Positions 16,001 to 42,414 of a stretch of DNA of 64,000 nucleotides are shown one piece after another. Position numbers and translations under genes: made by a program. The first letter of the stretch is position 1. Every line of letters begins with the position of its first letter. The DNA lies in IMG/VR virus record IMGVR_UViG_3300020474_000001, positions 1-64,000 of that record. One strand, written 5' to 3'. This stretch comes from a virus. Under the pieces are notes generated by a model that did no database searches, was not told where the DNA came from, and saw nothing but the letters and a program-made list of their open reading frames with translations.

Positions 16001-19000
16001 TTCATTTTTATTACCTGTGCCTTCCTGATCTAAAGTACGTGCCCATTGCAATACTCCTGAAGAATTATATTTAGCAATTAAAAATCCATAGGACTGGTTG
16101 CCAGATATAAGAATTGGGGCATAACCAGTGACAATTACATTATCTGAACTGTCAATCGCTAGTGCCTCAGCACGCATACTACCGATTGTACTCTTCAACA
16201 AACGTTGCCACTGAAGAGTTCCGGAGTCATTGTATTTTACAATTATAGCACCGTTGTTATCCCATTTTTGACTATAACCACAGTAATATAAATTATTCGA
16301 ACTATCAATCGCCACATCATTGGCAGCTTCATTAGACCCCGAATAATTTAAACTTGTTTGCCATGATATATTACCTCCGCCATTCAATTTTGCAAGATAT
16401 GCAGCATTATCAACTGAACTCTCCTCCCCAGCAGTATAAATGTTGCCAGCATTATCAACTGCCAGTCCTCTTGGTTCTGCAGTTGCATTGGTCGGATGCG
16501 AGAAGGTTGTAATCCAATAACTTTCAATTCCAGAAAGCTTAACAGACTCACCAACACTCAGAGCTTGATCGATTGATACTCCTTCAACTAAACTTCCATC
16601 AGATACTTTTGATACTGTGGTGTCTGTGAGAGTGAGTATTCTTGCATTGGGATCGGGGAATCCAGTTAAACCTACAACATGAGCAGTTCCAGACTTGGTT
16701 ATGTCGTGTCGGTAGAAAATTAAACATTGACCACCATTAGATCCACGAATCACCCCAAAATAATTATTATTGTTACTATCATAATTTGTGGCAGAACTAA
16801 AAGTAATTGTATCATTACTTGGATTTACAGTTGCATGGATGTACTCAGCTTGCCATGAAGCATTACCATTTTTGTATACGATAATAAGTTTTTGTCCACC
16901 AGAATCATATGCTATTCCACTTTGTTCTACAGATCCTTTTGCTGCAACTAGTTGTCCGGATCCAATATTAATTGAGTTATCATTTGGATCGACAGTTCCT
17001 ACATAGGCATAAACAGCATAAGGATCAGTAACACTACTACGATTCGTCCGTACAACGACTACTTTATTAGTACTCTCATCAAATGCGATAGATACTCCTC
17101 CTGAACTAGTGTTACTACCAACTACCGTTGGAGAACCAAAATTAATACTATTTCCACTTACAGTTCCTGCATGGACATAAACTACCAAACTTTGCGATGC
17201 TATAACAATTCTATTATTTGAAGTATCCACTGCCATTGCAATAAGATTACTAGATACACCATCACCGATTGAGATAGCAGATCCAAAACTAATTGTGTCA
17301 TTACTAGGACTTGACCCAACAGTTATAGTTCCAACTTTAGCAGTTCCATGATTGCTGTTTCCTTCGTCTCTATATGCAACAACGATCTTACCACTCGATG
17401 GATCAAATACCATCTTGACATCACTAGATTCTCCGTTCGAATTTATAACTTCGGCAGCTCCAAATTCGATTGAATTATTTGATGGATCAACAGTTCCAAC
17501 TTTAGCGTGGTGGTATTTATTTCCATTGGATTCATATTTTCTATATGCAACAACTACTTTATTGTTAGTCGAATCAAACGCAGCTGCGGTCACGACCATT
17601 CCTGAACCATAATCATATGTATCAAAGATTACTGGAGATCCAAAAGTAATCGTCCCTCCACTTATTTCTCCGACTATAGCAGTTCCATCGCTGCTGTTCT
17701 GAAGACGATAAAACAGAACAACTCTATTACTATTTGAATCAAATGCTGCCGATATATAATCTGCACCATTAGAGTATCTTCCCTCAAAAACTGTAGCCGA
17801 TCCAATTCCGGGTCCAGTTCCAGGATCAACACTCGCAATCGCACTTGATAGTGCAGTATAATCAAAATCAGGAACTCCAGTATCATCTGCAGGAGACAAT
17901 ACTGAAGGGGTTGCAATCTCACCAAATACTTGTAAAGATGCACCCAATGCTGGTAAAAACTCTGTGGAAAAATAATCAGTCCAAATTTCTTGGTATGTGT
18001 ATGTGCCACCTTCAGTTGCAGGAATAGTGATAGAAAGTCCAGTCTCTCCAGGAATTTCTACACCATCTCTATACCACTTAGATCCAACAAATGTAGCATT
18101 ATCGACATGAGCTCTAGTTGCAACTAGTGTTGCAGGAGAGTAGTTTCCATTACTACTGGTGATCGTTGGTTGTGTTGCAATGATACCTGTTCTAGCATCA
18201 ATAGTAGCACTTAAAGCTGGTAAAAACTCTGTGCTGAAGTAGTCTATCCAGACTTCTTCATACTTATAAACACCAGTATCTGAAACAGATAATGTAGTTC
18301 CAGTCTCTCCAGGAATTTCGACATCATCTTTATACCACTTAGATCCAGCAAATGTAGCATGATCAACATCAGCTCTAGTAGATGTCAAAACTGTTGGAAT
18401 GTAATCTCCATTACTACTGGTGATCGTTGGTTGTGTTGCAATGATACCTGTTCTAGCATCAATGGTAACAGATATAACTGGTAACAACTCTGTGGAAAAG
18501 AAATCTGTCCAGGATTCACGATACATATAGATTCCTGTATCTGAAACAGATAGCGTAGTTCCAGTCTCTCCAGGAATTTCTGCACCATCTTTATACCATT
18601 GAGATCCAGCAAATTCTGCATCAGCAACTACTCCTGGAGTTGCGGTTAATACTGTTGGAATATAGTCTCCATTACTACTTGAAACAGTGGGTTGAGATAC
18701 TATAACACCAGCTCTAGCATCAATGACTGCAGCTAAACTTGGGAATAGTTGATTTCCAAAAGTATCTTCCCATACTTCCTCATACTTATATGTCCCAATT
18801 TCTGTTGCATAAAACTGTAAACCCGTTGCACCAGGAATCTCTACATCATCCTTATACCACTTTGCACTTGCTAAAGTAGCATCAGATACGTTTGCACTAA
18901 CTGCTGTTAACATTGCAGGAATATATCCTGAGTTGTCATCAAGAATACTTGGTGGAGAAATGATTGAACCAGGTACTGGTCCAGGAGCTTGAGTAGTCGG

Positions 19001-26191: not shown

Positions 26192-29065
26192 TCATGGGGT
26201 AAGTGTATTACTATCTGTACTTACAGTTCCCTGACTATTAGCGAACTCCATAGTAGTCTGAATTGTAGTTCCTGCTGGAAGTTCTACATCAGGTGCATTT
26301 CCTGATGGGAAAGTTGCTGGGAAAGTAATAGTATTATCAGCACCATATCCAAGATTAACAAATCCAGGATCTGAACTTGTTAAGTCGGTTACAGCACCAG
26401 CACCACTTAATACTGCGTATAGATTCGCTTGTGAACCTCCAAAATAAGATACTGTATTTTGAAGTGGTTTTCCAGTTTCAAACGCGGTTTGACCACTCAT
26501 ATTAATAAATTGCATATCAGTCCCATCAATAGATAACAACTCTCCAGAAATTCCAGGATTAGTTCCAGGTTGAGAAAGTCTATTACCAAGTCTAATGCTG
26601 CTATTGGAAAGATTTGTAGTTCCAGACAAAGTAACAACGTCTCTATCCTTCATCCAAAATCCCATTCTATTATAGTACGAGTTGCCATGATGATAAGTCA
26701 AGCCGCCTTGGGCCAGCAACCATCCAGCACCTTGTCTAACTGTGTTATAATAGTTAGGACTGAGGCAGTCAGCGATTCCACCAGTGCCATTGTTATAGGT
26801 GCTGACTCTGACGTTATTATATTGAGCGACAGTCCAATTAGATCCACTATCAGAAGATTGAGCCCAATACCAGTACTGATTGGAATTTTGATCACTACCC
26901 TCTGCGAGATAAAGTCCTTTCGCAAAACATATGAGTCTACCGCGATGCCAAATTACTCCCTGAGGAGATCCATTCATCGTCCAACCTGATGGTTCAGGTC
27001 TTGGCCGTGCAACCCAATTCTCTCCACCATCTGAACTATAATATGGGTTGTAGCTTCCAAAGGTAATGTATATTTCATTTTCATTTTCTGGATTAGGACC
27101 AGGTGAATTTCCTAAACTGAAGTCGCTAAGGACTCCATTGCCACTACTTAGGTCATAAAATTCATCCTTAAAAACCCAATGACTACGCGTTTTACCATCA
27201 TTTATAGAGAAATCACACGTATATGCGCGATATCTGTAATTAGAAGATGCACTTACATAATGTTGATAAAATACAGTAACCTTAGTTCCATGGACTACAA
27301 TGCCCCTGGCATTACCTTGGGAGTATCCAGATGGTAAACTGGGATGGTTTTGAGCAAGATTGCTAACGACAGTTGCTGTACAATTTTCATAATCGGTAAG
27401 ATCGCCATTCCATATAACCATATCATAAGTATTCCAAGCAGGATAAACAGATATTCTCTCACCATTAGGTAGAGTTAAATGTTTCATATACTTCGCGTCC
27501 CCACCGCTACTAATATCATGCATCTGGGCAATAGGTTTCCATTGCGCATAGTGCTCAGAATTACTTTTTCTTATACTAAAATCATCTATAGTTACCCATT
27601 TACTATGGTTACTATACATTAAAACACAATCTGGTTTATACATTTCAAAGTGATAAACAGTATTGGCCTGATTGCTCCCGCTAGAATTCTGATACATCTG
27701 ACGATATGTAGAAAGGGTTGTATCTGTATAATATTGATATCCCATATCGACGGAAGTGCCAAAACTCGTACTGTTTGTTGAAAGATTAACATATGGAGTT
27801 TCATTAGAGAAACCATCTGTTTCATTATACTTCATCTGAAATCCATTACCATTTGGAATATACATGGGAGCTATCACCCACCCCGATCCACCTTCTCCAG
27901 TATAATACACTTGATTCCAATTGCGTATACTACTGCTACTAGTATATCCGCCTGCCTGATGTTCATAATATAATTTACCTGTCGCATTGACGTTATTTGC
28001 TATTGGATCATCACTAGTAACGGTAGAAACGTTATCAGTTTGTGGAAAAGTATCGAAAGTTCCTCCAAATTTTACCTTAACACTTTTAGTTGATGTTGGT
28101 GTTCCGTCCGGATTTAAAATTGCATCAAGACTATATGATTGTGATGTAAATCTTGCCCCGGAAGTATCATCCTCTGAAAGTGTTAATGAACTAATCGTAG
28201 CAACTTGATTAGTGTTGAGTTGACCAGAAGGTGCGCTAGGAAGATCAATAGTTAATGGACCACCTTGAGCTGCATCGGTACTATCAGTAACTGTGGATAC
28301 AGCACGTACATAATAACCAGCATCAGCTGATGTTATTGTATAATTTTCTCCAGTTGAACCAGTATCGAACCAACCATCTAAACCAGTAAATGAACGCTGC
28401 CACTTAACAGATGAACTATGTGGTGCTGTACCTCCAGTAGCAGTACCAGGAGTTGCAGTAACAACATCGCCAACACCACTTCCGCTGGTGATAGTTGTTG
28501 TAGTATCTTCAGATAATGGTGCTAAGTTTGACTGAACAACAACCCAAGTGATGTATGTAGTACCAATCTGAAGATTTCCAGTATAGGTTGTATTGTCAGT
28601 TGTAGTTACTGGATTATCAGCATACTTCAAATTGAGTTTAAACTCTCCAGCAGCATTGAGAATACCAACGTCCTGCCCTTTAAATCTATCTGCAGATGCT
28701 GTTGGACTATTATCAGTGAATACTGCAATGTCTCCAGCAGTACCACTAATCGTAAGTTCATGTGCGCTTGTCAGACTACCACCAGAAAATGGACTTCCAA
28801 CGTTAGTAAGAAGATAAGGATCTGATTGAGTTCCTGTTCCTCCAGTGAATGCTGGTGAAGCAGTTACTTCTGCTGGAGTTGGTGCTACCTCATTCGTAGA
28901 TGAAATTGAAGTCAAACCTGCGCCTTGCTTGACATAAAGTCTTCCTTGATCCGTAGCAAAACAGATCTCTCCTTCGTCAATTGCAGCAAGTGCATCAACT
29001 GTAGATAAATTTGCGTATGTTCCCCTGGCAATTCTTACCGGGGTTCTTGTAGATGGAACTCCCAT
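26192..29065 (-). CDS. fibre/adhesin with Mtd_N-like domain, Ig-like domain and beta-propeller
   Basis: 957 aa, ATG at 29065 with AAAAGGAG upstream. Residues about 8-50 (VRIARGTYANLSTVDAL, GEICFATDQGRLYVKQG) match the Mtd_N-type docking domain. Residues about 185-280 are Ig/FN3-like (VKWQRSFTGLDGWFDTG, ITSADAGYYVRAVSTV). About 390-820 are aromatic-rich repeats with BNR-like signatures (YYSSDGGENWVARP, WAQSSDSGSNWTVAQ), suggesting a beta-propeller. The C-terminal 100 residues (GYGADNTITFPATFPSGNAP) are a separate small domain. It is likely a receptor-binding protein. Confidence 0.75.
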   Translation of the reverse strand: MGVPSTRTPVRIARGTYANLSTVDALAAIDEGEICFATDQGRLYVKQGAGLTSISSTNEVAPTPAEVTASPAFTGGTGTQSDPYLLTNVGSPFSGGSLTSAHELTISGTAGDIAVFTDNSPTASADRFKGQDVGILNAAGEFKLNLKYADNPVTTTDNTTYTGNLQIGTTYITWVVVQSNLAPLSEDTTTTITSGSGVGDVVTATPGTATGGTAPHSSSVKWQRSFTGLDGWFDTGSTGENYTITSADAGYYVRAVSTVTDSTDAAQGGPLTIDLPSAPSGQLNTNQVATISSLTLSEDDTSGARFTSQSYSLDAILNPDGTPTSTKSVKVKFGGTFDTFPQTDNVSTVTSDDPIANNVNATGKLYYEHQAGGYTSSSSIRNWNQVYYTGEGGSGWVIAPMYIPNGNGFQMKYNETDGFSNETPYVNLSTNSTSFGTSVDMGYQYYTDTTLSTYRQMYQNSSGSNQANTVYHFEMYKPDCVLMYSNHSKWVTIDDFSIRKSNSEHYAQWKPIAQMHDISSGGDAKYMKHLTLPNGERISVYPAWNTYDMVIWNGDLTDYENCTATVVSNLAQNHPSLPSGYSQGNARGIVVHGTKVTVFYQHYVSASSNYRYRAYTCDFSINDGKTRSHWVFKDEFYDLSSGNGVLSDFSLGNSPGPNPENENEIYITFGSYNPYYSSDGGENWVARPRPEPSGWTMNGSPQGVIWHRGRLICFAKGLYLAEGSDQNSNQYWYWAQSSDSGSNWTVAQYNNVRVSTYNNGTGGIADCLSPNYYNTVRQGAGWLLAQGGLTYHHGNSYYNRMGFWMKDRDVVTLSGTTNLSNSSIRLGNRLSQPGTNPGISGELLSIDGTDMQFINMSGQTAFETGKPLQNTVSYFGGSQANLYAVLSGAGAVTDLTSSDPGFVNLGYGADNTITFPATFPSGNAPDVELPAGTTIQTTMEFANSQGTVSTDSNTLTP

Positions 29066-30127: not shown

Positions 30128-30485
30128 TTGACAGAGTTACACCAGGAGTAACCGTTACCATTCCCTGAATTACTCGACTCCTGTATCCATCAGTAATATC
30201 AACAATTACAATATCATAGTAATATCTTCCTGCCGGAATTGTTGACGTTAACGTATTATTCATTGTTAGTATAATCTGACCATCATCAGGATCAATTGCA
30301 GTTGTAAAAACATATTCACTCGTTACTCCATTAATAGCATGTTGCCGATCAGGAGTCTTTCTTAGGACTGCGAATGCCTCGTTCTGATTGATATTGAAAG
30401 GAGATCCATCTGGATTCGTAATTGTAAACGAAGAAGCATAGTCCGAACCCTGTTCAATAGTAATGTTAATTACTGGTACTGCCAC
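30123..30485 (-). CDS. small structural protein, baseplate-upper-protein-like fold
   Basis: 120 aa, starting with GTG at 30485. The sequence (INITIEQGSDYASSFTITNP, then AFAVLRKTPDRQHAINGV, IILTMNNTLTSTIPAGRYYY) has the pattern of the small beta-domain at the start of phage baseplate-upper or fibre-adaptor proteins. It has its own late promoter. A role as an adaptor between tail and fibres is plausible; the family assignment is by residue pattern only. Confidence 0.6.
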   Translation of the reverse strand: MAVPVINITIEQGSDYASSFTITNPDGSPFNINQNEAFAVLRKTPDRQHAINGVTSEYVFTTAIDPDDGQIILTMNNTLTSTIPAGRYYYDIVIVDITDGYRSRVIQGMVTVTPGVTLST

Positions 30486-30507
30486 GATGTTAATTTATAC
30501 TTTTTAC

Positions 30508-30515
30508 TATTTATC
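30508..30515 (-). promoter_or_regulatory. T4-type late promoter (GATAAATA)
   Basis: GATAAATA on the minus strand, 22 nt before the GTG at 30485, overlapping the end of the oxygenase gene. Confidence 0.6.
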
Positions 30516-31209
30516 AATTTGACATATCATTTGCACAATGAACTCTATTCCCATCTGCAAGAACGTAGTGGAAAAATACTTGATGGTAATATGTATCATC
30601 CGGAAGTTCAGCATAACAATTTCCAACATGTCTTGATGGAAGAGGATCTCTCCAATGAGGACGCTCGCAACCTTTATACATAACACCATCTCCTGGAGAT
30701 AAACAAATCGAACAACTCTCCCCCTGAAGAATAATCTCTGACTTATCGTCATATGTATCAGGCGTCTTTATCCAGATAGGCCAACACTGCTCGATATTAG
30801 TACTTATATTTACACTTACAGAAATTTCACAAGCATCTCTATCAGCGTGAAGTAAAAGTTTTTGTCCAGCAAAATAAAATCGATCATAATAATAAGTATT
30901 ATATAACTTTCTTCCAATAACAGATTCTAAAAATAATCTGATTTGAGAATGAATAGATCTATACTGTGGATGACCATATGTTTCAAGAGATCCTCCCACT
31001 TGCTCTGGAACCGAATCAAAAGTGAACTGATCTTGCCCAGTTCCCCAATACCTTATTATCCCCCTCTTCTCTGGAACAGGACGAAATAAATCTTTTGTAT
31101 CCCAAAGATTTTCAATTATTAAAAAACCATACTTATCAAACTCCTCATGACGAGTCCAAGATGTTCCACTATTCTCCCATTCTTGAAATTTTATATCTTT
31201 CATTTCCAT
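30514..31209 (-). CDS. 2-oxoglutarate/Fe(II) oxygenase-like protein
   Basis: 231 aa from the ATG at 31209. An ATG at 31203 would form an ATGA overlap with the upstream oxygenase, and a GTG at 31227 is less likely. The core shows HADRDACEISVSVN (the His-x-Asp iron pair, about residues 121 and 123), then GDGVMYKGCERPHWRDPL with the probable distal iron His near residue 185, and YYHQVFFHYVLADG. This matches the double-stranded beta-helix of a 2OG oxygenase family seen in marine phages. Such enzymes hydroxylate a protein or small-molecule substrate using oxygen and 2-oxoglutarate. It is coupled to the oxygenase just upstream and shares its sigma70-type promoter. The substrate is unknown. Confidence 0.7.
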   Translation of the reverse strand: MEMKDIKFQEWENSGTSWTRHEEFDKYGFLIIENLWDTKDLFRPVPEKRGIIRYWGTGQDQFTFDSVPEQVGGSLETYGHPQYRSIHSQIRLFLESVIGRKLYNTYYYDRFYFAGQKLLLHADRDACEISVSVNISTNIEQCWPIWIKTPDTYDDKSEIILQGESCSICLSPGDGVMYKGCERPHWRDPLPSRHVGNCYAELPDDTYYHQVFFHYVLADGNRVHCANDMSN

Positions 31210-31820
31210 CTTGGTCCAACAGTCCACCCAACAATAGATTTGCGAAGACCAGATTTTACACGAAGAACACGATGTTGTGTTCGAGAATCAAATAAAATTA
31301 CAGTTCCTCTTTTTCTCGGAGCAAAATAAGATCTACCAGTTTCATCCAATAGTTGCAAGTTCCCCCCCTCATAATCATCTGGATGAGAAAGTTGCAAAAC
31401 AAAAGACAACTTACGGACAAGTTCGGTATTCTCGTTTATGAAATCGTCAGATTTGCCCCCCATACGACTACCGACTGACTCTGGTTTATATGCACTAGCA
31501 ATGCCAGCATCATTATGCCAACCATAAAACTCACCCGGTCCATATTGAGTATATTGCAATGACTCCCCATCAATACATTTCAAATCGTATAAAAAATTTT
31601 CTCTATTTGCTCTATTAATGTAATGCCACATAAACCCACCAATCCAATGTTCACTAGGAACCCATGTATTTTTAGAATTTCTCTTTTCTTTATTTACCTC
31701 ACCACCGTAAAGATAGGACTCGCTCATACTAGAATCATAGTTTATAGAAAGATCTTTCTCAATTATATCTACAATTTCCTCAGGCATAGAGGAATAATAC
31801 CAAATAGTTTGATGAGCCAT
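31200..31820 (-). CDS. 2OG-Fe(II) oxygenase, prolyl-4-hydroxylase-like
   Basis: 206 aa from the ATG at 31820 (MAHQTIWYYSS). A TTG three codons upstream is less likely. It contains the full catalytic set: YGWHNDAG (His 102, Asp 104), RGTVILFDSRTQHRV (His 183) and GLRKSIVGW (Arg 193 for 2-oxoglutarate). LSFVLQLSHPDDYEGGNLQL is the typical strand pair of prolyl-4-hydroxylase-type enzymes. Length and layout match single-domain P4H-like proteins. It follows a Gly-rich virion gene by 63 nt and has a sigma70-type promoter in that gap, unlike the late-promoter fibre genes. A protein substrate, perhaps the neighbouring Gly-rich proteins, is inferred. Confidence 0.85.
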   Translation of the reverse strand: MAHQTIWYYSSMPEEIVDIIEKDLSINYDSSMSESYLYGGEVNKEKRNSKNTWVPSEHWIGGFMWHYINRANRENFLYDLKCIDGESLQYTQYGPGEFYGWHNDAGIASAYKPESVGSRMGGKSDDFINENTELVRKLSFVLQLSHPDDYEGGNLQLLDETGRSYFAPRKRGTVILFDSRTQHRVLRVKSGLRKSIVGWTVGPRWK

Positions 31821-31843
31821 TCCGAACAATTTTCTTATACTAT

Positions 31844-31872
31844 ATTATACAATTTATAGATCCACAAGTCAA
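31844..31872 (-). promoter_or_regulatory. sigma70-type promoter (TTGACT-17-TATAAT) for oxygenase pair
   Basis: Minus strand TTGACT at 31867-31872 and TATAAT at 31844-31849 with a 17-nt spacer, 24 nt before the ATG at 31820. It begins just after the stop of the Gly-rich gene at 31883. This is a host-type promoter, not a T4 late octamer. Confidence 0.7.
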
Positions 31873-31882
31873 TGCTAAAAAC

Positions 31883-32857
31883 TTATTGATAACCTATCCA
31901 GTAAGGTTGTTCTCTATCACCGGTTTTTAATATACTCATACAAGTCACAAAAGCAGTATCTATAGTGTCATTATCAGTGTTTAACTGAGAAGAGACATTT
32001 GTTACACCAGCCTCATCAATAGATGGATTTGGCAATTGATTGGACGGAACTCCGTCATAATATGAGGATCCTCCCCCACCACCGCCACCTGTTTTTAACC
32101 TTGGGGGCCAACCGTATCCCTCATAGATACCACCACCAGCACCTCCACCATAGTATCCCATGCCACCATTCCCACCATCACTATGACCATCACTAGTAAC
32201 TATGGCAGTACCTCTACTAAAAAATCCACCATCAGTACTGGTCAGTATTCCTACACCACCATAGGCAGTACCAGCTATTCCACCACTACCAGATTTATAC
32301 CCACTAGTTGTTCCCCCAGTTCCACCGGTAGCACCTACAGAATCAGATGTACCTGGAGAACCCTGTCCTGCTGTTCCTTGTGTTGGAATACCTGCATTTC
32401 CGCCCAATCCACATGCATTTGGATCAGAAGACCAGGCAAATCCGGGATCAATGCGTCCTGCAAGAGTCCCTTTGCCATCACCTCCCTGAGCTCCAAGCAT
32501 CATGCAATAATCATTATTTGTATTAGATTCTCCCCAATATATTGCACCAATGCCACTGTTTACCCTGACACAGTATTTTGTACCATATCTCATATTAATT
32601 GTACCCTGGACCCAAGCACCAAGTCCAGATTGAGGACGACCATCTGAGTGTGCTGTTGGAACTCTATCACTTCCAGCCTCTCCACCACACTTAATTACAA
32701 CAGAATAATCCGCAAGTATTGGTTCAATGATATCACCATCTTGAAAATTATATGAAGATGCCTGACTAATATCTTCTTCTGTTCCATCCATGTGTAGAAC
32801 TTTTAGTTCTACGGATTGGATTGGACCCCCCATGCCCAGACGCATTTGTTGCATCAT
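31883..32857 (-). CDS. Gly-rich virion protein/adhesin
   Basis: 324 aa, ATG at 32857 (a second ATG follows at once) behind AGAGAGG. Residues 1-55 (IQSVELKVLHMDGTEEDIS) form a small beta domain. About 55-140 contain Cys residues (VVIKCGGEAGSD, MRYGTKYCVRVNSGIG). About 140-285 are Gly-rich (GGNAGIPTQGTAGQGSPGT, GGNGGMGYYGGGAGGGIYE, KTGGGGGGGSSYYDG). The tail, 285-324, is non-repetitive. The layout resembles the Gly-rich heads of the genes at 40714 and 23570. Tyr residues set in acidic/Gly context could be modification sites for nearby enzymes; this is inference. Confidence 0.7.
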   Translation of the reverse strand: MMQQMRLGMGGPIQSVELKVLHMDGTEEDISQASSYNFQDGDIIEPILADYSVVIKCGGEAGSDRVPTAHSDGRPQSGLGAWVQGTINMRYGTKYCVRVNSGIGAIYWGESNTNNDYCMMLGAQGGDGKGTLAGRIDPGFAWSSDPNACGLGGNAGIPTQGTAGQGSPGTSDSVGATGGTGGTTSGYKSGSGGIAGTAYGGVGILTSTDGGFFSRGTAIVTSDGHSDGGNGGMGYYGGGAGGGIYEGYGWPPRLKTGGGGGGGSSYYDGVPSNQLPNPSIDEAGVTNVSSQLNTDNDTIDTAFVTCMSILKTGDREQPYWIGYQ

Positions 32858-32878
32858 GTCTTGCTACCTCTCTATAAA

Positions 32879-34003
32879 TTAAGATAATCCGGATCCAGAA
32901 ATGATAAACTCATTTGCTGCAGTGCATGCGATAGTGGATACACCTTTTGCCGCCAATATTCTATCTCCAATATTTCCATCAGCGGTATTATACAGGGTAA
33001 CTGCAGATCCATCAATCGCAACAAGTCCTCCAGAAACATTAAATATCGTAACCATATCTCCATCCGACAATGTATCTGCTGGGATAATAATTGTTTTGCC
33101 AACAGTATTTTGTCTGATGAGTTTTCCTGCATCAGCAGAAACTAGCGTATAATCATCGGACTGATTATTGATTATAAGTCTTCTCAATGGTCCATGAGAA
33201 TCCGAAATAGTACCTCCAGATGATATATCACCAGAGGCTATTATATTAGATTGAGTTGTTATACTTTGAGAAGCTTCTATATTATTGCCACTTATATCAC
33301 CAGTCGCTGTTATATCACGACCTGCTGTTATATCATTAGTGACCGTTATATTGGCAGTATTAATAGAAGAAACAGATACGTCTGTAGCAATTATATTAGT
33401 AAAAGTAGAATCCCCTGATAGATCTATTCCAGAAATACTTATATTTGTTATACCTTCTCCACTTCCAGAAAGCTTTGTAGAAAACAACTCACCTGTGATA
33501 GGATTAAATTTAAAGTTTGCAGCAGAAACTCTTGCTTCAGATGGATTACCAAGCGCACCATCCGAATCAACAAATACTGGGAAGTGATCTAGATTGTCAT
33601 GAGAATTATTTACACATCTAAGATCACTACTGATTATGGGAAAGGAGGATCCAATATTAATGGCAGAAAATTCAAGCCCATTAGTAGGAGCAACAGTAAA
33701 TGTTAATACTGTTCCATCAACAGTGTAATCGACATCGGGAACTTGATCCAGTCCGTCAAGCGAAATTAAAAGTTGTTTAGCCGTAGTTGGAGAAATAGAT
33801 GCTCCCAAAGATCTCAATGGAAAAATTGTTTGGACACCATCAAATTGACTACTTATATCATCAATAACCTTTATACCCCTAGCTGACGATGGGGAGCGAC
33901 TCGTCCATGTACCATATTGCTCATTCCAGGAATAATAAAATTGTGAATCTTCATCAAAAAATATTTCGCCATTAACAGGAGAATCTGGAAAATTTAGTGC
34001 CAC
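32879..34003 (-). CDS. modular tail fibre protein
   Basis: 374 aa, starting with GTG at 34003. Residues 1-40 (ALNFPDSPVNGEIFFDED, YSWNEQYGTWTS) are a diverged form of the FPDPSQSPW docking module. About 50-120 hold a VDYTVDGTVLTFTVAP domain like the duplicated C-terminal domains of the gene at 4226. About 155-265 are fibre repeats (TNIIATDVSVSSI, ITAGRDITATGDISGNNI). The C-terminus (residues 275-374: GKLIRQNTVGKTIIIPAD, GDMVTIFNVSGGLVAI) is a compact beta domain common at the ends of phage fibre proteins. Likely a virion fibre. Confidence 0.75.
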   Translation of the reverse strand: MALNFPDSPVNGEIFFDEDSQFYYSWNEQYGTWTSRSPSSARGIKVIDDISSQFDGVQTIFPLRSLGASISPTTAKQLLISLDGLDQVPDVDYTVDGTVLTFTVAPTNGLEFSAINIGSSFPIISSDLRCVNNSHDNLDHFPVFVDSDGALGNPSEARVSAANFKFNPITGELFSTKLSGSGEGITNISISGIDLSGDSTFTNIIATDVSVSSINTANITVTNDITAGRDITATGDISGNNIEASQSITTQSNIIASGDISSGGTISDSHGPLRRLIINNQSDDYTLVSADAGKLIRQNTVGKTIIIPADTLSDGDMVTIFNVSGGLVAIDGSAVTLYNTADGNIGDRILAAKGVSTIACTAANEFIISGSGLS

Positions 34004-34026
34004 TTTATTACTGATATCTTTTCATA

Positions 34027-34034
34027 TATTTATA
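34027..34034 (-). promoter_or_regulatory. T4-type late promoter (TATAAATA)
   Basis: Exact TATAAATA on the minus strand, 23 nt before the GTG at 34003. Confidence 0.75.
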
Positions 34035-34037
34035 AGT

Positions 34038-34562
34038 TCAGAGATAGCTTAAAAACATTGAGGGAATATAATCAAGTATCAAATGCACTCTAGCGATTTC
34101 TGAATTATTCTCAACATAATGAATTTTTTTATTGTTTATCTCAACCAGCTGCCCCTGTTTAAATTTGAAAAGATGATCTTCGATATAAAATCTTACATCA
34201 CTATTAGTAATTATAGGAAGATGAATTCTATGCGATAAACTAAAATCCAATCCAGTATCATAATGACTTGCAATCTTCTCACCTGGAGGGATCAAAGAAA
34301 ATTGTATATTATATACAGACCCATTCCCATAATTTAAATTTAAAATTTGAGTTATATCTTGAGAGATGTCGAAAAATTTCTGTATTATATGTGGATGATT
34401 TATCCTTGACCTCTCCACAAGAAACCAATTCTTACATCCAGAAAAATACTTCTCTCGATTGTAATTATTATTCTCAGAAAAAGATACATGCTCTTCTATA
34501 AAATCAATATATTTCTCAGAATTAACAAGTCCAAGATATTTTACATGATTTGGTTTGTTCAT
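34038..34562 (-). CDS. aspartyl/asparaginyl beta-hydroxylase-like protein
   Basis: 174 aa. ATG at 34562 overlaps the stop of the sulfotransferase gene (ATGA). The motif PPGEKIASHYDTGLDFSLSH (His 100, Asp 102) followed by RIHLPIITN, then KFKQGQLVEINNKKIHYVEN (His 148) and ARVHLILDY (Arg 158), fits the Asp/Asn beta-hydroxylase branch of 2OG-Fe(II) oxygenases, which hydroxylate Asp or Asn in proteins or peptides. It forms a tight overlapping cassette with two sulfotransferases, so all three are probably co-translated. The target is unknown; neighbouring virion proteins rich in Asn and Asp are candidates. Confidence 0.8.
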   Translation of the reverse strand: MNKPNHVKYLGLVNSEKYIDFIEEHVSFSENNNYNREKYFSGCKNWFLVERSRINHPHIIQKFFDISQDITQILNLNYGNGSVYNIQFSLIPPGEKIASHYDTGLDFSLSHRIHLPIITNSDVRFYIEDHLFKFKQGQLVEINNKKIHYVENNSEIARVHLILDYIPSMFLSYL

Positions 34563-35095
34563 AAAAAATCTGTAGAATATTTGAAATTATAAAAATCAGA
34601 TGCGTAATAATCCCTTACAAAATCCCTTTCCCTTTGTCCATATGAATTAAAATATTCAACCTCAGAATATGATCCCTTGTTAATATGTGGGATAGATACA
34701 CTTAAATCACTCTCCAGATCTTTTAAATTTTCAAACTTGTAAATTTTATCTAAACCAATATCACCACCAGTGTTAAGACAATAAAAAGATTGAGAATATG
34801 GAATCATTTTAGTTTTGGGAAAAGATGCACCACTTTTTATAATATCAAGAAATTGTCCAAATGTATACTCAGTATGATTAACTTTATTGAAGTGCTTGTA
34901 GTAACTAAATGCTCTTCGATATGGATTTCTAACTACAGAAAATTTATATGCCCCTTCAATATAATTATTTTTTTCCAATAAAAATAACGGATCATGTTTT
35001 GCATGCTCAACATAATTCCAGTGACTACTAATTACAGAAAATATTGATTGCCCAGCAGTTTTAGGAATATGCACGAATAATATCAATCTCTCCAA
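34559..35095 (-). CDS. sulfotransferase family 2-like protein
   Basis: About 178 aa. The start is TTG, either at 35095 or, with a TTGA overlap of the preceding stop, at 35086; no ATG is near. The N-terminus LFVHIPKTAGQSIFSVI is the 5'-phosphosulfate-binding loop of the Sulfotransfer_2 group, and FSVVRNPYRRAFSYYKHF holds the 3'-phosphate-binding Arg/Ser region. These enzymes move sulfate from PAPS to a carbohydrate or other acceptor. The protein is shorter than many relatives but both cofactor motifs are present. It overlaps a second sulfotransferase and an Asp-hydroxylase-like gene. Confidence 0.78.
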   Translation of the reverse strand: MERLILFVHIPKTAGQSIFSVISSHWNYVEHAKHDPLFLLEKNNYIEGAYKFSVVRNPYRRAFSYYKHFNKVNHTEYTFGQFLDIIKSGASFPKTKMIPYSQSFYCLNTGGDIGLDKIYKFENLKDLESDLSVSIPHINKGSYSEVEYFNSYGQRERDFVRDYYASDFYNFKYSTDFL

Positions 35096-35883
35096 AATTC
35101 CATCCCCCTACACCGTTCAAGTATTTCTTTTGGCAGAACTTCTTTAGGATCTTTAGATTGATACTCAATCTTTGATCTGATATCGTGCAACCCAGGAAGA
35201 TTATAATACCCAGTATCCTCTACCTGATTATTATTTTGAATATGATCGAAATCGTGATCATATATATCTTCACCAAGAAAATTATAAATCGAATTCATAG
35301 TATCATATGGATTTGAAACCAAATCTTTATACTCTACAAATAAAATTCTATCCAACAAATTATTATCAAGAGCAAATTGAATATGACGCATAGCATTACC
35401 AAGGAAGGTATTGAGTATAACATCACATCTATTATAGTCTGTCAGAGGAAATTCTTTCTCTATTACTGCAATATCAATAACATTAAAATTAATTCCATCA
35501 TAGGTCTTATGAATTAAAGTCAAAAATGATGTTAATATTTCTGATATATCTCTAACTGGACATATTATTTTAGCTCTCTGTCCAATATACTGTTCAATAT
35601 AATTTATTTGCCTTGGCCAATCTCTATTCTTATCAAAAATTACAGGACAATCTATATCATGATAGTAGTTTCCTATGACAGATGATATTATTTTGTGCGC
35701 ACTAATTGGTTTTGGAGAAGATTTATAATGTTCGATAGTTGGAATATTACTTTCAATGTTCCTCATAATATCCAATACTGGAGTTAGAGGACCAGAATAA
35801 AATCTTTGATTCTGATTTAAAATTGAAGATAACAAAGTCGCACCAGATCTATGAAGACCTGCAATAAAATAATATTTTTTCAT
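35083..35883 (-). CDS. sulfotransferase
   Basis: 266 aa, ATG at 35883. The 5'-phosphosulfate loop is FIAGLHRSGATLLSSIL at residues about 6-22. Downstream RAKIICPVRDISEILTSFL matches the 3'-phosphate region, and RILFVEYKDLVSNPYDTM, then YNFLG, are typical C-terminal sulfotransferase motifs. Family members use PAPS to sulfate proteins or glycans. GLHRSGATLL resembles protein-type (tyrosyl) sulfotransferases more than the second enzyme does, but the acceptor cannot be told from sequence. It follows the gene at 35890-36468 by 6 nt and overlaps the next sulfotransferase. Confidence 0.85.
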   Translation of the reverse strand: MKKYYFIAGLHRSGATLLSSILNQNQRFYSGPLTPVLDIMRNIESNIPTIEHYKSSPKPISAHKIISSVIGNYYHDIDCPVIFDKNRDWPRQINYIEQYIGQRAKIICPVRDISEILTSFLTLIHKTYDGINFNVIDIAVIEKEFPLTDYNRCDVILNTFLGNAMRHIQFALDNNLLDRILFVEYKDLVSNPYDTMNSIYNFLGEDIYDHDFDHIQNNNQVEDTGYYNLPGLHDIRSKIEYQSKDPKEVLPKEILERCRGMEFWRD

Positions 35884-35889
35884 ACAAAA

Positions 35890-36468
35890 TCAAGAATTTG
35901 AAGTATCTGGCCAAACGATATCTAAAGTCAGATTGTTGATATCATCAAGGGTATTGCAATCATCAACTAATCTTGATGCCGCATTTTCTACATCAAAACA
36001 ACTTTGTATATAATTGGAAACAAAATTAAGAAGATCGATCATTTCTTCTTTGGTCAAATCCACATATCCATCCACAAATTTCCATGCAGTCATAATATCA
36101 CCATCTTGATTGTCTAAAGACGAAACTCTTAATGATAAAGAGGTTCTAGTATTATTTGTTAGGTTAATCCTATTTCCATCAAATGTCAACGTCTCTTCAA
36201 CCTTTTCTTTTCTATCCGAAGAGATATATGATTTAATATTAGATTTACTTGAATCCATCCAATTAGTTGAAGTCGTAAAAGATGATAGATTCTCATTGTC
36301 ACTAGGAATCCATCCTAGATTATTATGACCTGCCCAAGATAGATCTGAAAGTTTTTCATCATCAAAAAAATTCAAACCACTAACGTTTGCCCAGTTTTCT
36401 GGTAACTTGTTTAATGGTGTCAATATTTCTGATTTACTGATATCAGCTAAGACATATAAGTCAAGCAT
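35890..36468 (-). CDS. 192-aa protein, DUF4376-like C-terminus (possible fibre assembly)
   Basis: ATG at 36468 overlaps the preceding gene by 8 nt. The N-terminal half (LTPLNKLPENWANVSGL, DLSWAGHNNLGWIPSD) resembles phage fibre-assembly or DUF4376-type proteins. The C-terminal helices (DLTKEEMIDLLNFVSNY, QSCFDVENAASRLVDDC) have the pattern of the DUF4376 helical domain (VxxCFxxExxLxxxI). Such proteins often sit next to tail fibres and may assist their folding or attachment. The match is by pattern, so it is tentative. Confidence 0.55.
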   Translation of the reverse strand: MLDLYVLADISKSEILTPLNKLPENWANVSGLNFFDDEKLSDLSWAGHNNLGWIPSDNENLSSFTTSTNWMDSSKSNIKSYISSDRKEKVEETLTFDGNRINLTNNTRTSLSLRVSSLDNQDGDIMTAWKFVDGYVDLTKEEMIDLLNFVSNYIQSCFDVENAASRLVDDCNTLDDINNLTLDIVWPDTSNS

Positions 36469-36964
36469 CTTCTTGATCTCCCTCTGGTGTTTCCTGTTCT
36501 AAATCTTCCTTTTCTTCCAAAGAATCCATTAATTGTTGAACTCTAACTTTCTCATTTGGAAGTTGATTTTCTTGATATTTTCTCTCAAGCTCCTTTCCCT
36601 CAAAAACTTGCCATGCTGCAGCACCTTTCCAGGCAATCCTATCAAGGGGAACTCTTTGTCCAATAACATCTTCCCATCCCCTCCATGATGCAAAATCATG
36701 CTTGGGTCTCATCGCAATCTCAATACCAAGACCAGCAGCAAGTTGTTCAATCAACTCAACCCCTTCTGTTGGCTGCATCTGTGCATAAACATTGCCAATA
36801 TCAGCTCTCATACTGACTTCAACAACTCCACCAAATGCAGTACCTACTGTTATTGATCTTGCTCTATTACGATTCTGTTTCATAGAAAGATATTCATTCT
36901 CTGCACATAGCAATTCGATCTTTTCTCTGAGTTCAGAAACGGTCTCACATCTTTCTTCTGACAT
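36461..36964 (-). CDS. 167-aa conserved-looking protein of unknown function
   Basis: ATG at 36964 (MSEERCETVSELREKIELL). Residues 1-35 are a Glu/Leu-rich helix. Residues about 36-85 are a small domain (VGTAFGGVVEVSMRADIG, EQLAAGLGIEIAMRPKHDF) followed by SWRGWEDVIG and a charged helical tail ending EQETPEGDQEDA. It is coupled by an 8-nt overlap to the DUF4376-like gene and follows the collagen-like gene by 30 nt. I do not recognise a family. Context suggests a virion accessory or assembly role. Confidence 0.55.
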   Translation of the reverse strand: MSEERCETVSELREKIELLCAENEYLSMKQNRNRARSITVGTAFGGVVEVSMRADIGNVYAQMQPTEGVELIEQLAAGLGIEIAMRPKHDFASWRGWEDVIGQRVPLDRIAWKGAAAWQVFEGKELERKYQENQLPNEKVRVQQLMDSLEEKEDLEQETPEGDQEDA

Positions 36965-36988
36965 ATTTTTGAATATTAAATATATGAA

Positions 36989-36996
36989 TATTTATC
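36989..36996 (-). promoter_or_regulatory. T4-type late promoter (GATAAATA)
   Basis: GATAAATA on the minus strand, 24 nt before the ATG at 36964, overlapping the end of the collagen-like gene. Confidence 0.6.
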
Positions 36997-38392
36997 ATTG
37001 AGAATTCCAAGAAATAGTAACCGATCCACCAGGTCCAACAATAATTGGATATTGAGTAGATGGAGAAACTGAAACTTGATAACTTAAACCAGTTGTGGCT
37101 GGTTTACCATTCTCTGGAGGATTTGTAGTACCAGGGTTTCCCGGATTGCCAAAATTACCAAGCCCAGCATCTCCAACAGGTGCTCCAGGACTACCTGGCT
37201 GTCCATCATATGCACCACTACCATTGCTACCATTAAATCCACCAGGATTTCCAGGATTTCCATTATTGGATCCACCACCGCCGCCGCCGCCGCCGCCACC
37301 GCCGCCGCCACGACCCCAATCACCATATCCACCTCTACCTCCATATCCTCCAGGACCAGCACGATATCCAGAATTTCCATGAGGACCACCATTACCACCA
37401 TTCTGCCCAGCACCATGAACCGCATTTGTCGGGCTTCCATTTCCACCATTTCCTCCACCAGGATTACCACCGCTTCCCCTCTGACCACCAGCTCCACCAG
37501 CACCTGAGCTTCCACCAGTACCTAGCTTTCCACCATTTGCCCTATTACCACCATTTCCACCATCACCCCCATTACCAGCATATCCATCACCTCCTTTACT
37601 ACCAGCTCCACCAGGAGCACCAGCAAAACCAGGTGATCCTGCATTTCCTCCTCCACCGGCATTACCAGGAGCGCCAGGATTTCCTATTCCACCTGCACCG
37701 CCAAGTCCACCAGGAAAAACAACACCTAAAGCAGAACTGGATTGACCAGCAGATCCTGACAGACCATCAATCCCATCAGTTCCTGGATCTCCAATAGGTC
37801 CAGAGGCACCTTGAGTTCCATGACCACCTTGTTCACCAGTATTATAATATCCGGGATTTCCTAGGTTTGCATTTCCATCCTGCCCATCAGGACCATTATT
37901 CCCATGCTCACCCCTGACGCCGTCGTTTCCCGGAGCACCTGGACCGTTTCCACCATAACCTCTACTACCGCCATATGCATCCGGACCACCATGAGAATTA
38001 GGAGCATTTCCATCACGACCATCCTTTCCATCATATCCACTCCTGTAGGGCATGCCGGGACCCGGATATCCAGCTCCGCCGCCACCACCGCCGCCACCGC
38101 CAGCACCAGAACCAGGAGCTCCTGGATTTCCTGGATTGCCATTTCCTCTTTGCCCATTAAATCCTTGACCACCTTGTCCACCAGCTCCATAATTACCAGG
38201 AAATCCTCTAACTTGTGATCCAGCACCACCTGTGCCTGCAACTCCAACCTGTCCAGGTTCACCTGCAGCACCAACGCCAGTTACTGTCACATTAAGTAAC
38301 CTTGGAGGTGACACCCAAGTTGCTGGAGAATTAAAAGTGACTGATCCTGCGGCTTCACTACCTGCTCTACCAAGAATTCTTCTAGTTGACAT
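36995..38392 (-). CDS. collagen-like/polyglycine virion protein
   Basis: 465 aa, ATG at 38392, 3 nt after the stop of a 2OG oxygenase gene. Residues about 1-35 (SEAAGSVTFNSPATWVSPPR, LLNVTVTGVG) are a short beta domain, and the last 35 residues (SYQVSVSPSTQYPIIVGPGG) are another. Nearly all between is Gly-X-Y: one run of about 19 uninterrupted triplets lies near residues 225-285, another of about 10 near 190-220. About two dozen Pro residues stand directly before Gly (NPG, APG, SPG), the position hydroxylated in collagen. A run of 13 Gly is encoded by a GGC/GGT microsatellite. It could form a collagen triple helix or a polyglycine-II bundle as in some phage adhesins. Confidence 0.78.
   Translation of the reverse strand: MSTRRILGRAGSEAAGSVTFNSPATWVSPPRLLNVTVTGVGAAGEPGQVGVAGTGGAGSQVRGFPGNYGAGGQGGQGFNGQRGNGNPGNPGAPGSGAGGGGGGGGGAGYPGPGMPYRSGYDGKDGRDGNAPNSHGGPDAYGGSRGYGGNGPGAPGNDGVRGEHGNNGPDGQDGNANLGNPGYYNTGEQGGHGTQGASGPIGDPGTDGIDGLSGSAGQSSSALGVVFPGGLGGAGGIGNPGAPGNAGGGGNAGSPGFAGAPGGAGSKGGDGYAGNGGDGGNGGNRANGGKLGTGGSSGAGGAGGQRGSGGNPGGGNGGNGSPTNAVHGAGQNGGNGGPHGNSGYRAGPGGYGGRGGYGDWGRGGGGGGGGGGGGGSNNGNPGNPGGFNGSNGSGAYDGQPGSPGAPVGDAGLGNFGNPGNPGTTNPPENGKPATTGLSYQVSVSPSTQYPIIVGPGGSVTISWNSQ
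37271..37311 (-). repeat. GGC/GGT trinucleotide microsatellite in collagen-like gene
   Basis: A run of about 13 Gly codons, mostly GGC (plus strand ccg repeated), in otherwise AT-rich DNA. Unit number could change by slippage without altering the reading frame. Confidence 0.8.
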
Positions 38393-38395
38393 ATC

Positions 38396-38992
38396 TTACT
38401 CGTAATAGAACCAACCTGTTATTATATATTTTGGAGTGTTTCCAAAAACAACATTCCCCCTATGGGCATGTGTAAATGCTGCTGGCCAAATAATTAAAGT
38501 ATTCTCTTTTGGAGGAATCCTCAACTGCTGATATAGAAATTCGGTTTCCCCAGCCCCATCTTCATCTAATGTATTTAGATAAACACTATAAACTAAACCT
38601 CTATTTTGAGATGCTACATTTCCTTGCTCTGCATGCCAAACATGATAACCGGCTCCAGGGATCGTTTTTTGCATTTTTATAGAGGTGCATCTTAAATCAC
38701 AATTTTTCAAGATATCATATTCTTCAACATAATCATCGAAGCATGTTTGAAGGTGATTGAAGAAAATTCTTTCAGAAGATTTATCTTGAAACCTATCTGG
38801 TTGATGATTTCTCACATTTAAGAATAAGTGAGTATCATTCTTATGCACTTTATTTGCATTTTCTGATTGCTTTCTGTTGAGACACATTCCTTTAGAATTA
38901 AATCTCTCAAACTCATCAATCATATGACGACAATACCCATCAGGGAAAACATTGTCATACATTCCTATAAAATTATTATATTTTGCATTCAT
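38396..38992 (-). CDS. 2OG-Fe(II) oxygenase upstream of collagen-like gene
   Basis: 198 aa, ATG at 38992. IPGAGYHVWHAEQGN carries the first iron ligands (His 120, Glu 122; Glu in place of the usual Asp). LVYSVYLNTLDEDGAGETEF is the P4H-like central strand pair. LIIWPAAFTHAHRGNVVFG gives the distal His (175 or 177) and KYIITGW the 2-oxoglutarate-binding Lys. This is the pattern of a phage oxygenase group resembling prolyl hydroxylases. Its stop lies 3 nt before the ATG of a collagen-like protein with many X-Pro-Gly sites, so hydroxylation of that product is a strong positional inference, not proven. Confidence 0.8.
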   Translation of the reverse strand: MNAKYNNFIGMYDNVFPDGYCRHMIDEFERFNSKGMCLNRKQSENANKVHKNDTHLFLNVRNHQPDRFQDKSSERIFFNHLQTCFDDYVEEYDILKNCDLRCTSIKMQKTIPGAGYHVWHAEQGNVASQNRGLVYSVYLNTLDEDGAGETEFLYQQLRIPPKENTLIIWPAAFTHAHRGNVVFGNTPKYIITGWFYYE

Positions 38993-40713: not shown

Positions 40714-42414
40714 TTACGGCCTGGTTGGAGTAGATAATGTGCCATTGAACTTAGCCTTCTCATATGACTCAAATGTTATGAAAGCAACTCCTGTGTTACC
40801 GCCTGGTTGAGTAAACATGACATTTTTTATCTCATCATCTCGATATCCAGATGCTCCACCACCTCCAGATCCATCACCTGTTCCAGCAAATCCACCTTGA
40901 GCACCGCCGCCACCACCACCATCGTTTCCAGATGCTCCACCACCGTTATTACGATGTCCCTGACCATCCTTAAATCCGCGTTCAAGAGTTGCAGTGCTTT
41001 GGTTTATCGTACCACCACCATCGTAGAATTTAATATTTCCTGGTAGATTTTGGCATGGTTCATATCCTTGTAAATGCCAATATTTACCAAGGGTACATCC
41101 ACCAAGTCTTCCACCATTTGGACTGCTACCATCCCATTCATTATATTCAGTTCTTCCTGCTTGCGTTTGACCACGGGCAGGCAAATCACCTTGTCCTATT
41201 AATGAATTATTTACTCCACCAATTATTCCACCATCTCCTCCGCCAGAACCAGGGTTTCTTCCTTCTCCACGAGTTCCAGGAGTATCTATCCCACCACCAG
41301 CACCACCTGCACCATTTGTACCAGCACCACCACCTCCACCACAAACAGCAACAGCTTTTGCTTTATGGTAAACTACAATTAGACCACCTCCACCATTTAT
41401 TCCACCCTTTGGTCCTCCAGAGTATATTCCTTCATTTACTCCTATTTTAATTATATACTCATGATCCTTTATAATTGTCATATCAAAAACAGAAAGTCCA
41501 CCTTCTCCACCAAGATTTCCGTTAACAGTTCTTCCTACAGAAGCAGCCATAGTAACCTTTACCCTAATATCCTGCTCACGAGAATATACGCAAAGTGTCC
41601 TAAGAGCATTATTAGGATTTGCTGTGATCGTCAATGCTCCCCCAGTATCTAAATCCTGAGATCCACTATCAAAAGCTGAAGTACTAAATTTCTCAAAATT
41701 TAATATTGGTTTTGAGTCTCGAACAGTAAAATTTACTTCGGAACTATTTAAGAGAGAAGGAAATGAAAATGGATGAGAAACTCTACAAAATAATGTTTTG
41801 GTAGAAATCTCATCACTAGATATTGTCAACTGATTTGTCTTTGATCCAGAAATATTAGAAGTATCATCAAGATCAGTTCCGTTTAAGACCCACTGATAAG
41901 ATGCCCGATCTTCACTATTATCAGATAAATTTATACCAACAGTAAATACAGCATCACTGAATTGAGGCACCTCTTGACTTTGTGGTTGTTCACTAATAGT
42001 AAACTCAGCAGGAACAGAGATTGTTGCAATATTGGAATCCAATGGATCATTATCTGCGTTTCCAGTAGTTCCTGATGGGACATAATCAGCTCTCAAAAAA
42101 TATTGTTTTCCGTGGTCGAGTTGATTTTCTACATCTTGAATAGTCAATGTTGTTGTAGTAGTTCCAGAAAACTTTGTACTATCAGTTAAAGGAGTGCTGA
42201 TTTCACCCCCATATAGATACCACTGATAACCAATACTGCCACTATTTGATGCATCAGGATTGCTAGATGGAAAAGAAGCTGTAGCAATCCCTGTTAGAGT
42301 TAAATCCTGCCCGATACTAGTAGCAGTAGCATCAACTGGTTGTTGAGTAAAAGTGAGATTTGGACCATTTAAATCTAATTCTGTTTTTATTCTTGGGAAA
42401 AAACCGTGACTCAT
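40714..42414 (-). CDS. adhesin with two Ig-like domains and a Gly-rich head
   Basis: 566 aa. ATG at 42414 overlaps the preceding stop (ATGA). Residues about 20-130 and 135-230 are two Ig-like domains (YQWYLYGGEISTPLTDST, YQWVLNGTDLDDTSNI). Residues about 240-545 form a Gly-rich domain with AVAVCGGGGGAGTNGAGGA, SGGGDGGIIGGVNN and GGGGGGAQGGFAGTG plus several Cys and Tyr, an arrangement like the Gly-rich region of ALK/LTK-type proteins and some phage adhesins. It is co-translated with the 1932-aa protein. A host-binding role is likely. Confidence 0.75.
   Translation of the reverse strand: MSHGFFPRIKTELDLNGPNLTFTQQPVDATATSIGQDLTLTGIATASFPSSNPDASNSGSIGYQWYLYGGEISTPLTDSTKFSGTTTTTLTIQDVENQLDHGKQYFLRADYVPSGTTGNADNDPLDSNIATISVPAEFTISEQPQSQEVPQFSDAVFTVGINLSDNSEDRASYQWVLNGTDLDDTSNISGSKTNQLTISSDEISTKTLFCRVSHPFSFPSLLNSSEVNFTVRDSKPILNFEKFSTSAFDSGSQDLDTGGALTITANPNNALRTLCVYSREQDIRVKVTMAASVGRTVNGNLGGEGGLSVFDMTIIKDHEYIIKIGVNEGIYSGGPKGGINGGGGLIVVYHKAKAVAVCGGGGGAGTNGAGGAGGGIDTPGTRGEGRNPGSGGGDGGIIGGVNNSLIGQGDLPARGQTQAGRTEYNEWDGSSPNGGRLGGCTLGKYWHLQGYEPCQNLPGNIKFYDGGGTINQSTATLERGFKDGQGHRNNGGGASGNDGGGGGGAQGGFAGTGDGSGGGGASGYRDDEIKNVMFTQPGGNTGVAFITFESYEKAKFNGTLSTPTRP

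Follow-up and report, generated by a model that had tools for sequence, protein, structure and literature searches.

The window analysed here is a 64,000-nucleotide stretch of DNA, bases 1-64000 of a 207,655-base uncultured virus record (IMG/VR IMGVR_UViG_3300020474_000001), and its tail genes are of the cyanomyovirus type. Between positions 30514 and 38992, the minus strand encodes six modifying enzymes interleaved with tail-fibre and glycine-rich (Gly-rich) genes: four 2-oxoglutarate (2OG) oxygenases, referred to as P4, PK, FC and the 34038 enzyme, and two sulfotransferases, ST1 and ST2. All six had been proposed in an initial annotation made from the sequence, and all are present, five by Pfam matches above the curated cut-offs and FC by its predicted fold. 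We consider it fairly probable that this island, set in a cyanomyovirus-like late tail-fibre region, brings together adhesin-maturation modules as a mosaic, and that these serve chiefly to hydroxylate prolines of Gly-rich fibres. Four 2OG genes were detected when the full 207.7 kb record was searched, all inside the 8.5 kb island. No near relative of the record was found by nucleotide search among phage records.

P4 and its Gly-X-Y partner

P4 orthologues, defined by at least 46% identity, were drawn from IMG/VR. In all 46 deduplicated loci a Gly-rich gene is found no more than two genes from P4, which holds for 26% of size-matched genes from these loci (p=7e-24). After redundancy reduction at 80%, a Gly-X-Y gene is found at most 2 kb downstream of 32 of the 33 P4 orthologues, versus 3 of 21 remote family members (p=2e-10). 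P4 and the Gly-X-Y gene 36995-38392 are separated by 3 bases in the window, and an FC-like oxygenase stands between the two genes in part of the loci. The Gly-X-Y partners resemble the 36995-38392 protein over its full length, with a common N-terminal pattern and the C-terminus ...ISW..Q. Glycine occurs at every third residue at a median of 1.64 times the expected frequency in these partners. The corresponding lag-3 value for the 36995-38392 protein is 1.7 times expected, but the periodicity is interrupted and the longest run is 57 residues.

Collagen prolyl 4-hydroxylases hydroxylate proline at the Y position, directly before glycine. The P4-linked proteins carry proline mostly at this position (G-X-P-G 388, G-P-X-G 72), and so does the 36995-38392 protein alone (20 versus 4). 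The bias is the other way round in the P-SSM2 collagen-like proteins (58 versus 160), and bacterial collagens favour proline at X and threonine at Y (PMC8968730).

P4 passes the curated cut-off of PF13640 (39.6 versus 27 bits), and its H120-x-E122, H177 and K188 are invariant in an alignment of 4 sequences. The sole PDB sequence match of P4 is a weak one to 5c5t ('Prolyl 4-hydroxylase', E=0.0097), which we take to be the enzyme of chlorella virus PBCV-1. These observations suggest a first module, in which P4 and its putative substrate 36995-38392 would be expressed late in the host cytosol. With Fe(II), O2 and 2-oxoglutarate from the host, P4 would hydroxylate this protein at prolines preceding glycine, and the hydroxyproline would stabilise a virion fibre of the collagen or polyglycine-II type. 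From its sequence, a polyglycine-II fibre is possible for the 36995-38392 protein. PF21722 (Gly_rich_2, polyglycine-II tail adhesin) matches neither this protein nor that at 40714, and the protein at 23570-25525 matches it weakly (18.7 bits, cut-off 24.3). Among 50,697 phage records, the best match of P4 reaches 38% and the 167-residue gene 36461-36964 has no match. The P4/Gly-X-Y module is thus known here from uncultured viruses only.

The PK/FC pair and Gly-rich proteins

FC is labelled 'ferrochelatase' in PHROGs and has no match in Pfam, the ferrochelatase domain included. Its AlphaFold model (pLDDT 92) has the 2OG oxygenase fold, and H121-x-D123, H185 and R187 are invariant across 39 homologues. 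Among the listed PDB matches of the model, the best template-modelling (TM) scores belong to Pseudomonas putida prolyl-4-hydroxylase, at 0.55 for the query and 0.62 for the target (4iw3) and 0.52/0.63 (4j25), while AlkB scores about 0.40/0.45. Predicted fold and motif therefore identify FC as a 2OG oxygenase, in agreement with the initial annotation and against the public label, and we rejected the ferrochelatase identity. The same label (T4-GC615, PHROG 2954) is also carried by homologues in S-SM2, Bellamy, S-MbCM6, S-CAM8, ACG-2014b and S-RIM50 (L012, L013, L394-L397). To judge from the FC model, the public annotation of this cyanophage family looks wrong, and the correction would extend to many cyanophage genomes. 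Separately, two proteins labelled 'DNA endonuclease V' are also caught by 2OG profiles, with sub-cut-off PF13640 scores of 23.7 bits in ACG-2014i (L017:12197-12721) and 23.1 bits in S-H9-1 (L018:19236-19742); a misannotation is possible on these profile scores.

PK has PKHD hydroxylases as its PDB sequence matches (E=1.3e-7) and orthologues of 70-72% identity in Bellamy and S-SM2. Its H102-x-D104, H183 and R193 are invariant across 30 homologues. The open reading frames of PK and FC extend over 31200-31829 and 30514-31227 with TTG/GTG starts, and the ATG codons at 31820 and 31209 are better starts.

PK adjoins FC in 69 of 75 non-redundant FC loci. With Gly-rich defined as an 80-residue window of at least 30% glycine, 93% of 70 FC loci have a protein containing such a window no more than 5 kb away, versus 0-18% of positions in seven genomes. 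Controls taken from the same loci gave p=0.02 to 0.25 and were replaced by this whole-genome background; they were over-matched, because PK/FC loci are centred in Gly-rich regions.

The Gly-rich segments of pair-bearing genomes have a median proline content of 7.0%, compared with 2.5% in other genomes (p=1.5e-4 at the protein level and 0.0019 at the genome level). Ser/Thr, Lys, Asn/Asp/Gln/Glu and Tyr do not differ between the two groups, and glycine is slightly raised (p=0.02). The proline effect becomes weaker when sister genomes are dropped (p=0.018). In a pre-specified held-out test, carriers had 6.8, 7.7, 4.9 and 5.9% proline in Gly-rich segments and the others 3.6, 1.3 and 4.4%, so that the carriers separate fully at the minimum attainable p value of 0.029; two more FC-negative held-out genomes contain no Gly-rich segment. 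We infer a second module, in which the PK/FC pair may act much as P4 does, with tail adhesins of the poly-Gly type as substrates, for example 31883-32857. As an observation in its own right, three contigs with PK/FC pairs (L177, L180, L170) also encode collagen-like proteins of (GLQ/GTQ/GNQ)n repeats that are nearly proline-free.

Several points weigh against this reading of the island. The proline comparison was exploratory in origin. Its p value rises to 0.059 once remote FC homologues are included among the carriers, and the broad GC615 class was accordingly rejected as a predictor of proline content. The held-out test was small, with 4 versus 3 scorable genomes. The P4-linked Gly proteins are orthologous, and their proline counts are therefore not independent events; the conserved P4/Gly-X-Y adjacency could partly be inherited synteny. 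The initial annotation spoke of collagen-like genes, and although a glycine period of 3 is seen, with interruptions, the 36995-38392 protein stays below the Pfam Collagen cut-off (PF01391, 16.8 versus 27.2 bits). Incorporation of the Gly-rich proteins into virions is itself presumed. Finally, the 2OG class as a whole shows no significant linkage to adhesins in seven genomes (18 of 41 nearby versus 15.8 expected by rotation, p=0.35). In the same genomes 2OG genes do lie near Gly-rich proteins (8 versus 1.1 by rotation, p=0.005), an effect driven by this phage and Bellamy. The proposed link between enzymes and substrates thus stands for P4, PK and FC with Gly-rich genes, and for ST1 beside adhesins, but not for the 2OG class: adhesin linkage belongs to 2OG subfamilies.

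Proposed decorating enzymes and rival explanations

In ST1, R12 and G14 of the 5'-loop and R111 and S119 of the 3'-phosphate-binding motif are invariant across 42 sequences. The catalytic motifs described initially are thus intact, with key residues invariant in the FC, PK, P4, 34038 and ST1 alignments. The ST1 model (AlphaFold pLDDT 95) has tyrosylprotein sulfotransferase (TPST) as its nearest fold and profile. TPSTs use a catalytic glutamate and a substrate-binding arginine. In ST1 the positions of these residues (GEETR) are Ser33 and Pro35, and we rejected a TPST identity. At least 559 relatives of ST1 occur in viral contigs. The gene directly upstream of ST1 is adhesin-like in 52% of 33 non-redundant loci, versus 6% of size-matched genes (p=4e-9), where 'adhesin-like' is a composition rule (length, Gly/Ser/Thr/Asn, charge) and not a family match. 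Kelch-like or other adhesins predominate among the neighbours of ST1 relatives; linkage to Gly-rich genes, which the relatives of P4, PK and FC retain, is therefore not a feature of the ST1 family. No adenosine phosphosulfate (APS) kinase was found in the phage record, and 3'-phosphoadenosine 5'-phosphosulfate (PAPS) from the host would be needed.

ST2 passes PF03567 (24.9 versus 22 bits), with 178 residues against a profile of 252 positions. The 34038 enzyme passes PF05118 (53.6 versus 22.6 bits), the catalytic His is present, and H100-x-D102, H148 and R158 are invariant in 3 sequences. Each of the two has one relative, in one other viral contig, and the 34038 enzyme also has a remote homologue in Pelagibacter phage Mosig. 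Within the reach of our scans, the set of six enzymes is thus lineage-specific. ST1 would belong to a third module of extra decorating enzymes and may draw on host PAPS to sulfate glycans or adhesin residues, and ST2 and the 34038 enzyme would be lineage-specific additions to this module.

ST1 may act on a glycan of the virion or the host, because its relatives often precede a carbamoyltransferase and a gene of ~298 residues, with glycosyltransferases close by. These are polysaccharide-modification types, and ST1 of S-SRM01 adjoins a glycosyltransferase and a nucleotide-sugar epimerase. Such neighbours favour an alternative in which lipopolysaccharide or capsule of the host envelope is the target of the enzymes, so that superinfection is blocked or receptors are altered, and the genes just sit in a hypervariable adhesin region. 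This alternative suits the sulfotransferases more than it does the oxygenases. It leaves the one-to-one pairing of P4 with Gly-X-Y genes, the Y-position proline and the PK/FC proline enrichment unexplained, and the enzyme genes share their orientation with late tail-fibre genes; we consider it unlikely.

A related contig, L022, keeps the gene order of the island. Its six enzymes are 90-96% identical to those of the window, with ratios of nonsynonymous to synonymous substitution (dN/dS) of 0.05-0.23. For the Gly-rich and tail genes between them, identity falls to 64-78% and dN/dS rises to 0.39-0.51. The enzymes are thus conserved and the fibres variable. L022 has a 643-residue adhesin directly downstream of FC (16093-18024), which is not at the window counterpart 30485-30514, and this comparison suggests adhesin exchange beside fixed enzymes. 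The gain or loss of this adhesin, the different adhesins near PK/FC in L022 and the non-significant linkage of the 2OG class would also be expected if recombination merely collects mobile genes in tail-fibre regions, where neighbours have no enzyme-substrate relation. We regard such hitchhiking as distinctly improbable, since the pairing is subfamily-specific (32/33 versus 3/21) amid otherwise variable surroundings, the enzymes are under strong purifying selection and proline content co-varies with the pair.

The initial annotation suggested hydroxylation and then sulfation of tail adhesins. In its fullest form this would be a two-step line: 2OG enzymes hydroxylate Gly-rich fibres at proline or at other residues, and the sulfotransferases add sulfate to the hydroxyls so formed, which would give the phage polyanionic adhesins of a sulfated-hydroxyproline type. 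This sequence of reactions found no positive support and is, in our view, very unlikely. A 2OG gene lies within three genes of ST1 relatives in 15% of the 33 non-redundant loci, versus 9% of controls, which is not significant (p=0.24). A literature search found no work joining phage sulfotransferase, oxygenase and tail fiber. It is hardly credible that the oxygenases serve DNA repair or a drawdown of 2-oxoglutarate for nitrogen-stress control, as proposed in 2010 for cyanophage 2OG genes (PMC3037559): AlkB structures are among the fold matches of FC by E-value, but P. putida prolyl-4-hydroxylase exceeds them in TM score, linkage to Gly-rich tail genes is seen in three subfamilies, and the proline bias is not predicted.

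Layout of the island and comparison with known systems

The features of the island and its upstream neighbours are listed in the table. Adjacent genes in the island are separated by gaps of 3-62 bases or overlap by 4-13 bases. Several ATGA overlaps had been claimed initially; only the 34559/34038 junction is a 4-base overlap of this type, and the other overlaps are 8, 10 and 13 bases.

Table. Genes of the enzyme island and the adjoining upstream genes, with positions in the window.
Feature	Coordinates	Strand	Evidence
Ig-like and Gly-rich adhesin	40714..42414	-	phrog_24848; 80-residue window 41% Gly
Tail-fibre protein, upstream of P4	38999..40657	-	phrog_6722 tail fiber, E=1.8e-33
P4, prolyl-4-hydroxylase-like 2OG oxygenase	38396..38992	-	PF13640, 39.6 bits
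Gly-X-Y (collagen-like) protein, 465 residues, 37% Gly, predicted P4 substrate	36995..38392	-	Gly period, proline pattern
167-residue gene of the P4/collagen-like module	36461..36964	-	Genes of similar length after the Gly-X-Y gene in related contigs
DUF4376/tail-fibre-type protein, P4/collagen-like module	35890..36468	-	PF14301, 31.4 bits; phrog_10508 tail fiber
ST1, PAPS sulfotransferase	35083..35883	-	PF00685/PF13469, 53.9/52.6 bits
ST2, second sulfotransferase (Sulfotransfer_2 type)	34559..35095	-	PF03567, 24.9 bits
34038 enzyme, Asp/Asn beta-hydroxylase-like 2OG enzyme	34038..34562	-	PF05118, 53.6 bits
Tail-fibre protein	32879..34003	-	phrog_18673 tail fiber, E=6.7e-14
Gly-rich protein upstream of PK/FC, predicted substrate	31883..32857	-	80-residue window 40% Gly
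PK, 2OG oxygenase (PKHD/P4H-like)	31200..31820	-	PF13640, 55.1 bits
FC, 2OG oxygenase labelled ferrochelatase (T4-GC615)	30514..31209	-	Predicted fold, motif

Elsewhere in the window, a 957-residue protein at 26192-29065 has a weak, below-cut-off match to Mtd_N (major tropism determinant N-terminal, E=3.1e-4). A 1370-residue repeat protein at 3-4112, with Ala/Thr/Gly/Val-rich units (LDVTGATTLAGLTAGASTLASA), runs off the contig end; an open antisense frame of 820 residues lies opposite it and is nearly without glycine.

The initial annotation held that scattered single oxygenases were known in marine phages and that clustering with likely substrates was unusual. Clustering alone is not new, because clusters of 3-4 oxygenases are already annotated in the tail-fibre regions of S-SM2 (2OG-FC-2OG-2OG between tail genes), Bellamy (2OG-2OG-FC-2OG among Gly-rich genes) and S-CAM8 (five such genes). 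2OG oxygenases without an assigned role are numerous in marine phages, and here subfamilies are matched to particular Gly-rich tail genes. The match leads to a residue-level prediction, hydroxyproline before glycine, for a PK/FC pair that is present in the cultured phages S-SM2, Bellamy and S-CAM8. If it is true, phages have enzymes dedicated to making hydroxylated fibres of the collagen or poly-Gly type, and the modification may affect fibre stability or receptor binding.

Among the systems compared, the T4-GC412/GC615 proteins of S-SM2, Bellamy, S-MbCM6 and S-CAM8 are direct orthologues of PK and FC at the same tail-fibre position, annotated as 2OG oxygenase and 'ferrochelatase' without a link to Gly-rich proteins; these phages have no close P4 orthologue (best 38%). 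The P-SSM2 collagen-like proteins share with 36995-38392 the Gly-X-Y repeats in the tail region, but their proline is mainly at X rather than Y. TPST1/2 come closest to ST1 in fold and in sequence and have similar PAPS-binding motifs, whereas the catalytic positions differ (Ser33/Pro35). Marine virus AG-345-L05 (L016, 1-19000) has another adhesin-decoration cassette, in which three kelch-like adhesins of ~950 residues stand among three 2OG genes (two DUF6445-type), two sulfotransferases, two glycosyltransferase-like genes and one carbamoyltransferase. Its two 2OG and sulfotransferase pairs, glycosyltransferases and carbamoyltransferase between giant adhesins resemble the island, while the kelch-like adhesins and the other 2OG families, including DUF6445, differ from it.

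The prolyl 4-hydroxylase of PBCV-1 (Eriksson 1999, as cited in PMC9301287) is, like P4, a virus-encoded P4H-like 2OG oxygenase, and is proposed to act on viral collagen-type proteins; unlike P4, it belongs to a eukaryotic virus and is remote in sequence. Action of viral prolyl 4-hydroxylases on collagen-type proteins is mentioned there as possible and 'cryptic' (PMC9301287). In Bacillus anthracis, which is cellular and not a phage, a prokaryotic prolyl 4-hydroxylase that favours Y-position proline and the collagen-like surface (spore) protein BclA occur in one organism (PMC8968730), as P4 and its Gly-X-Y partner do here.

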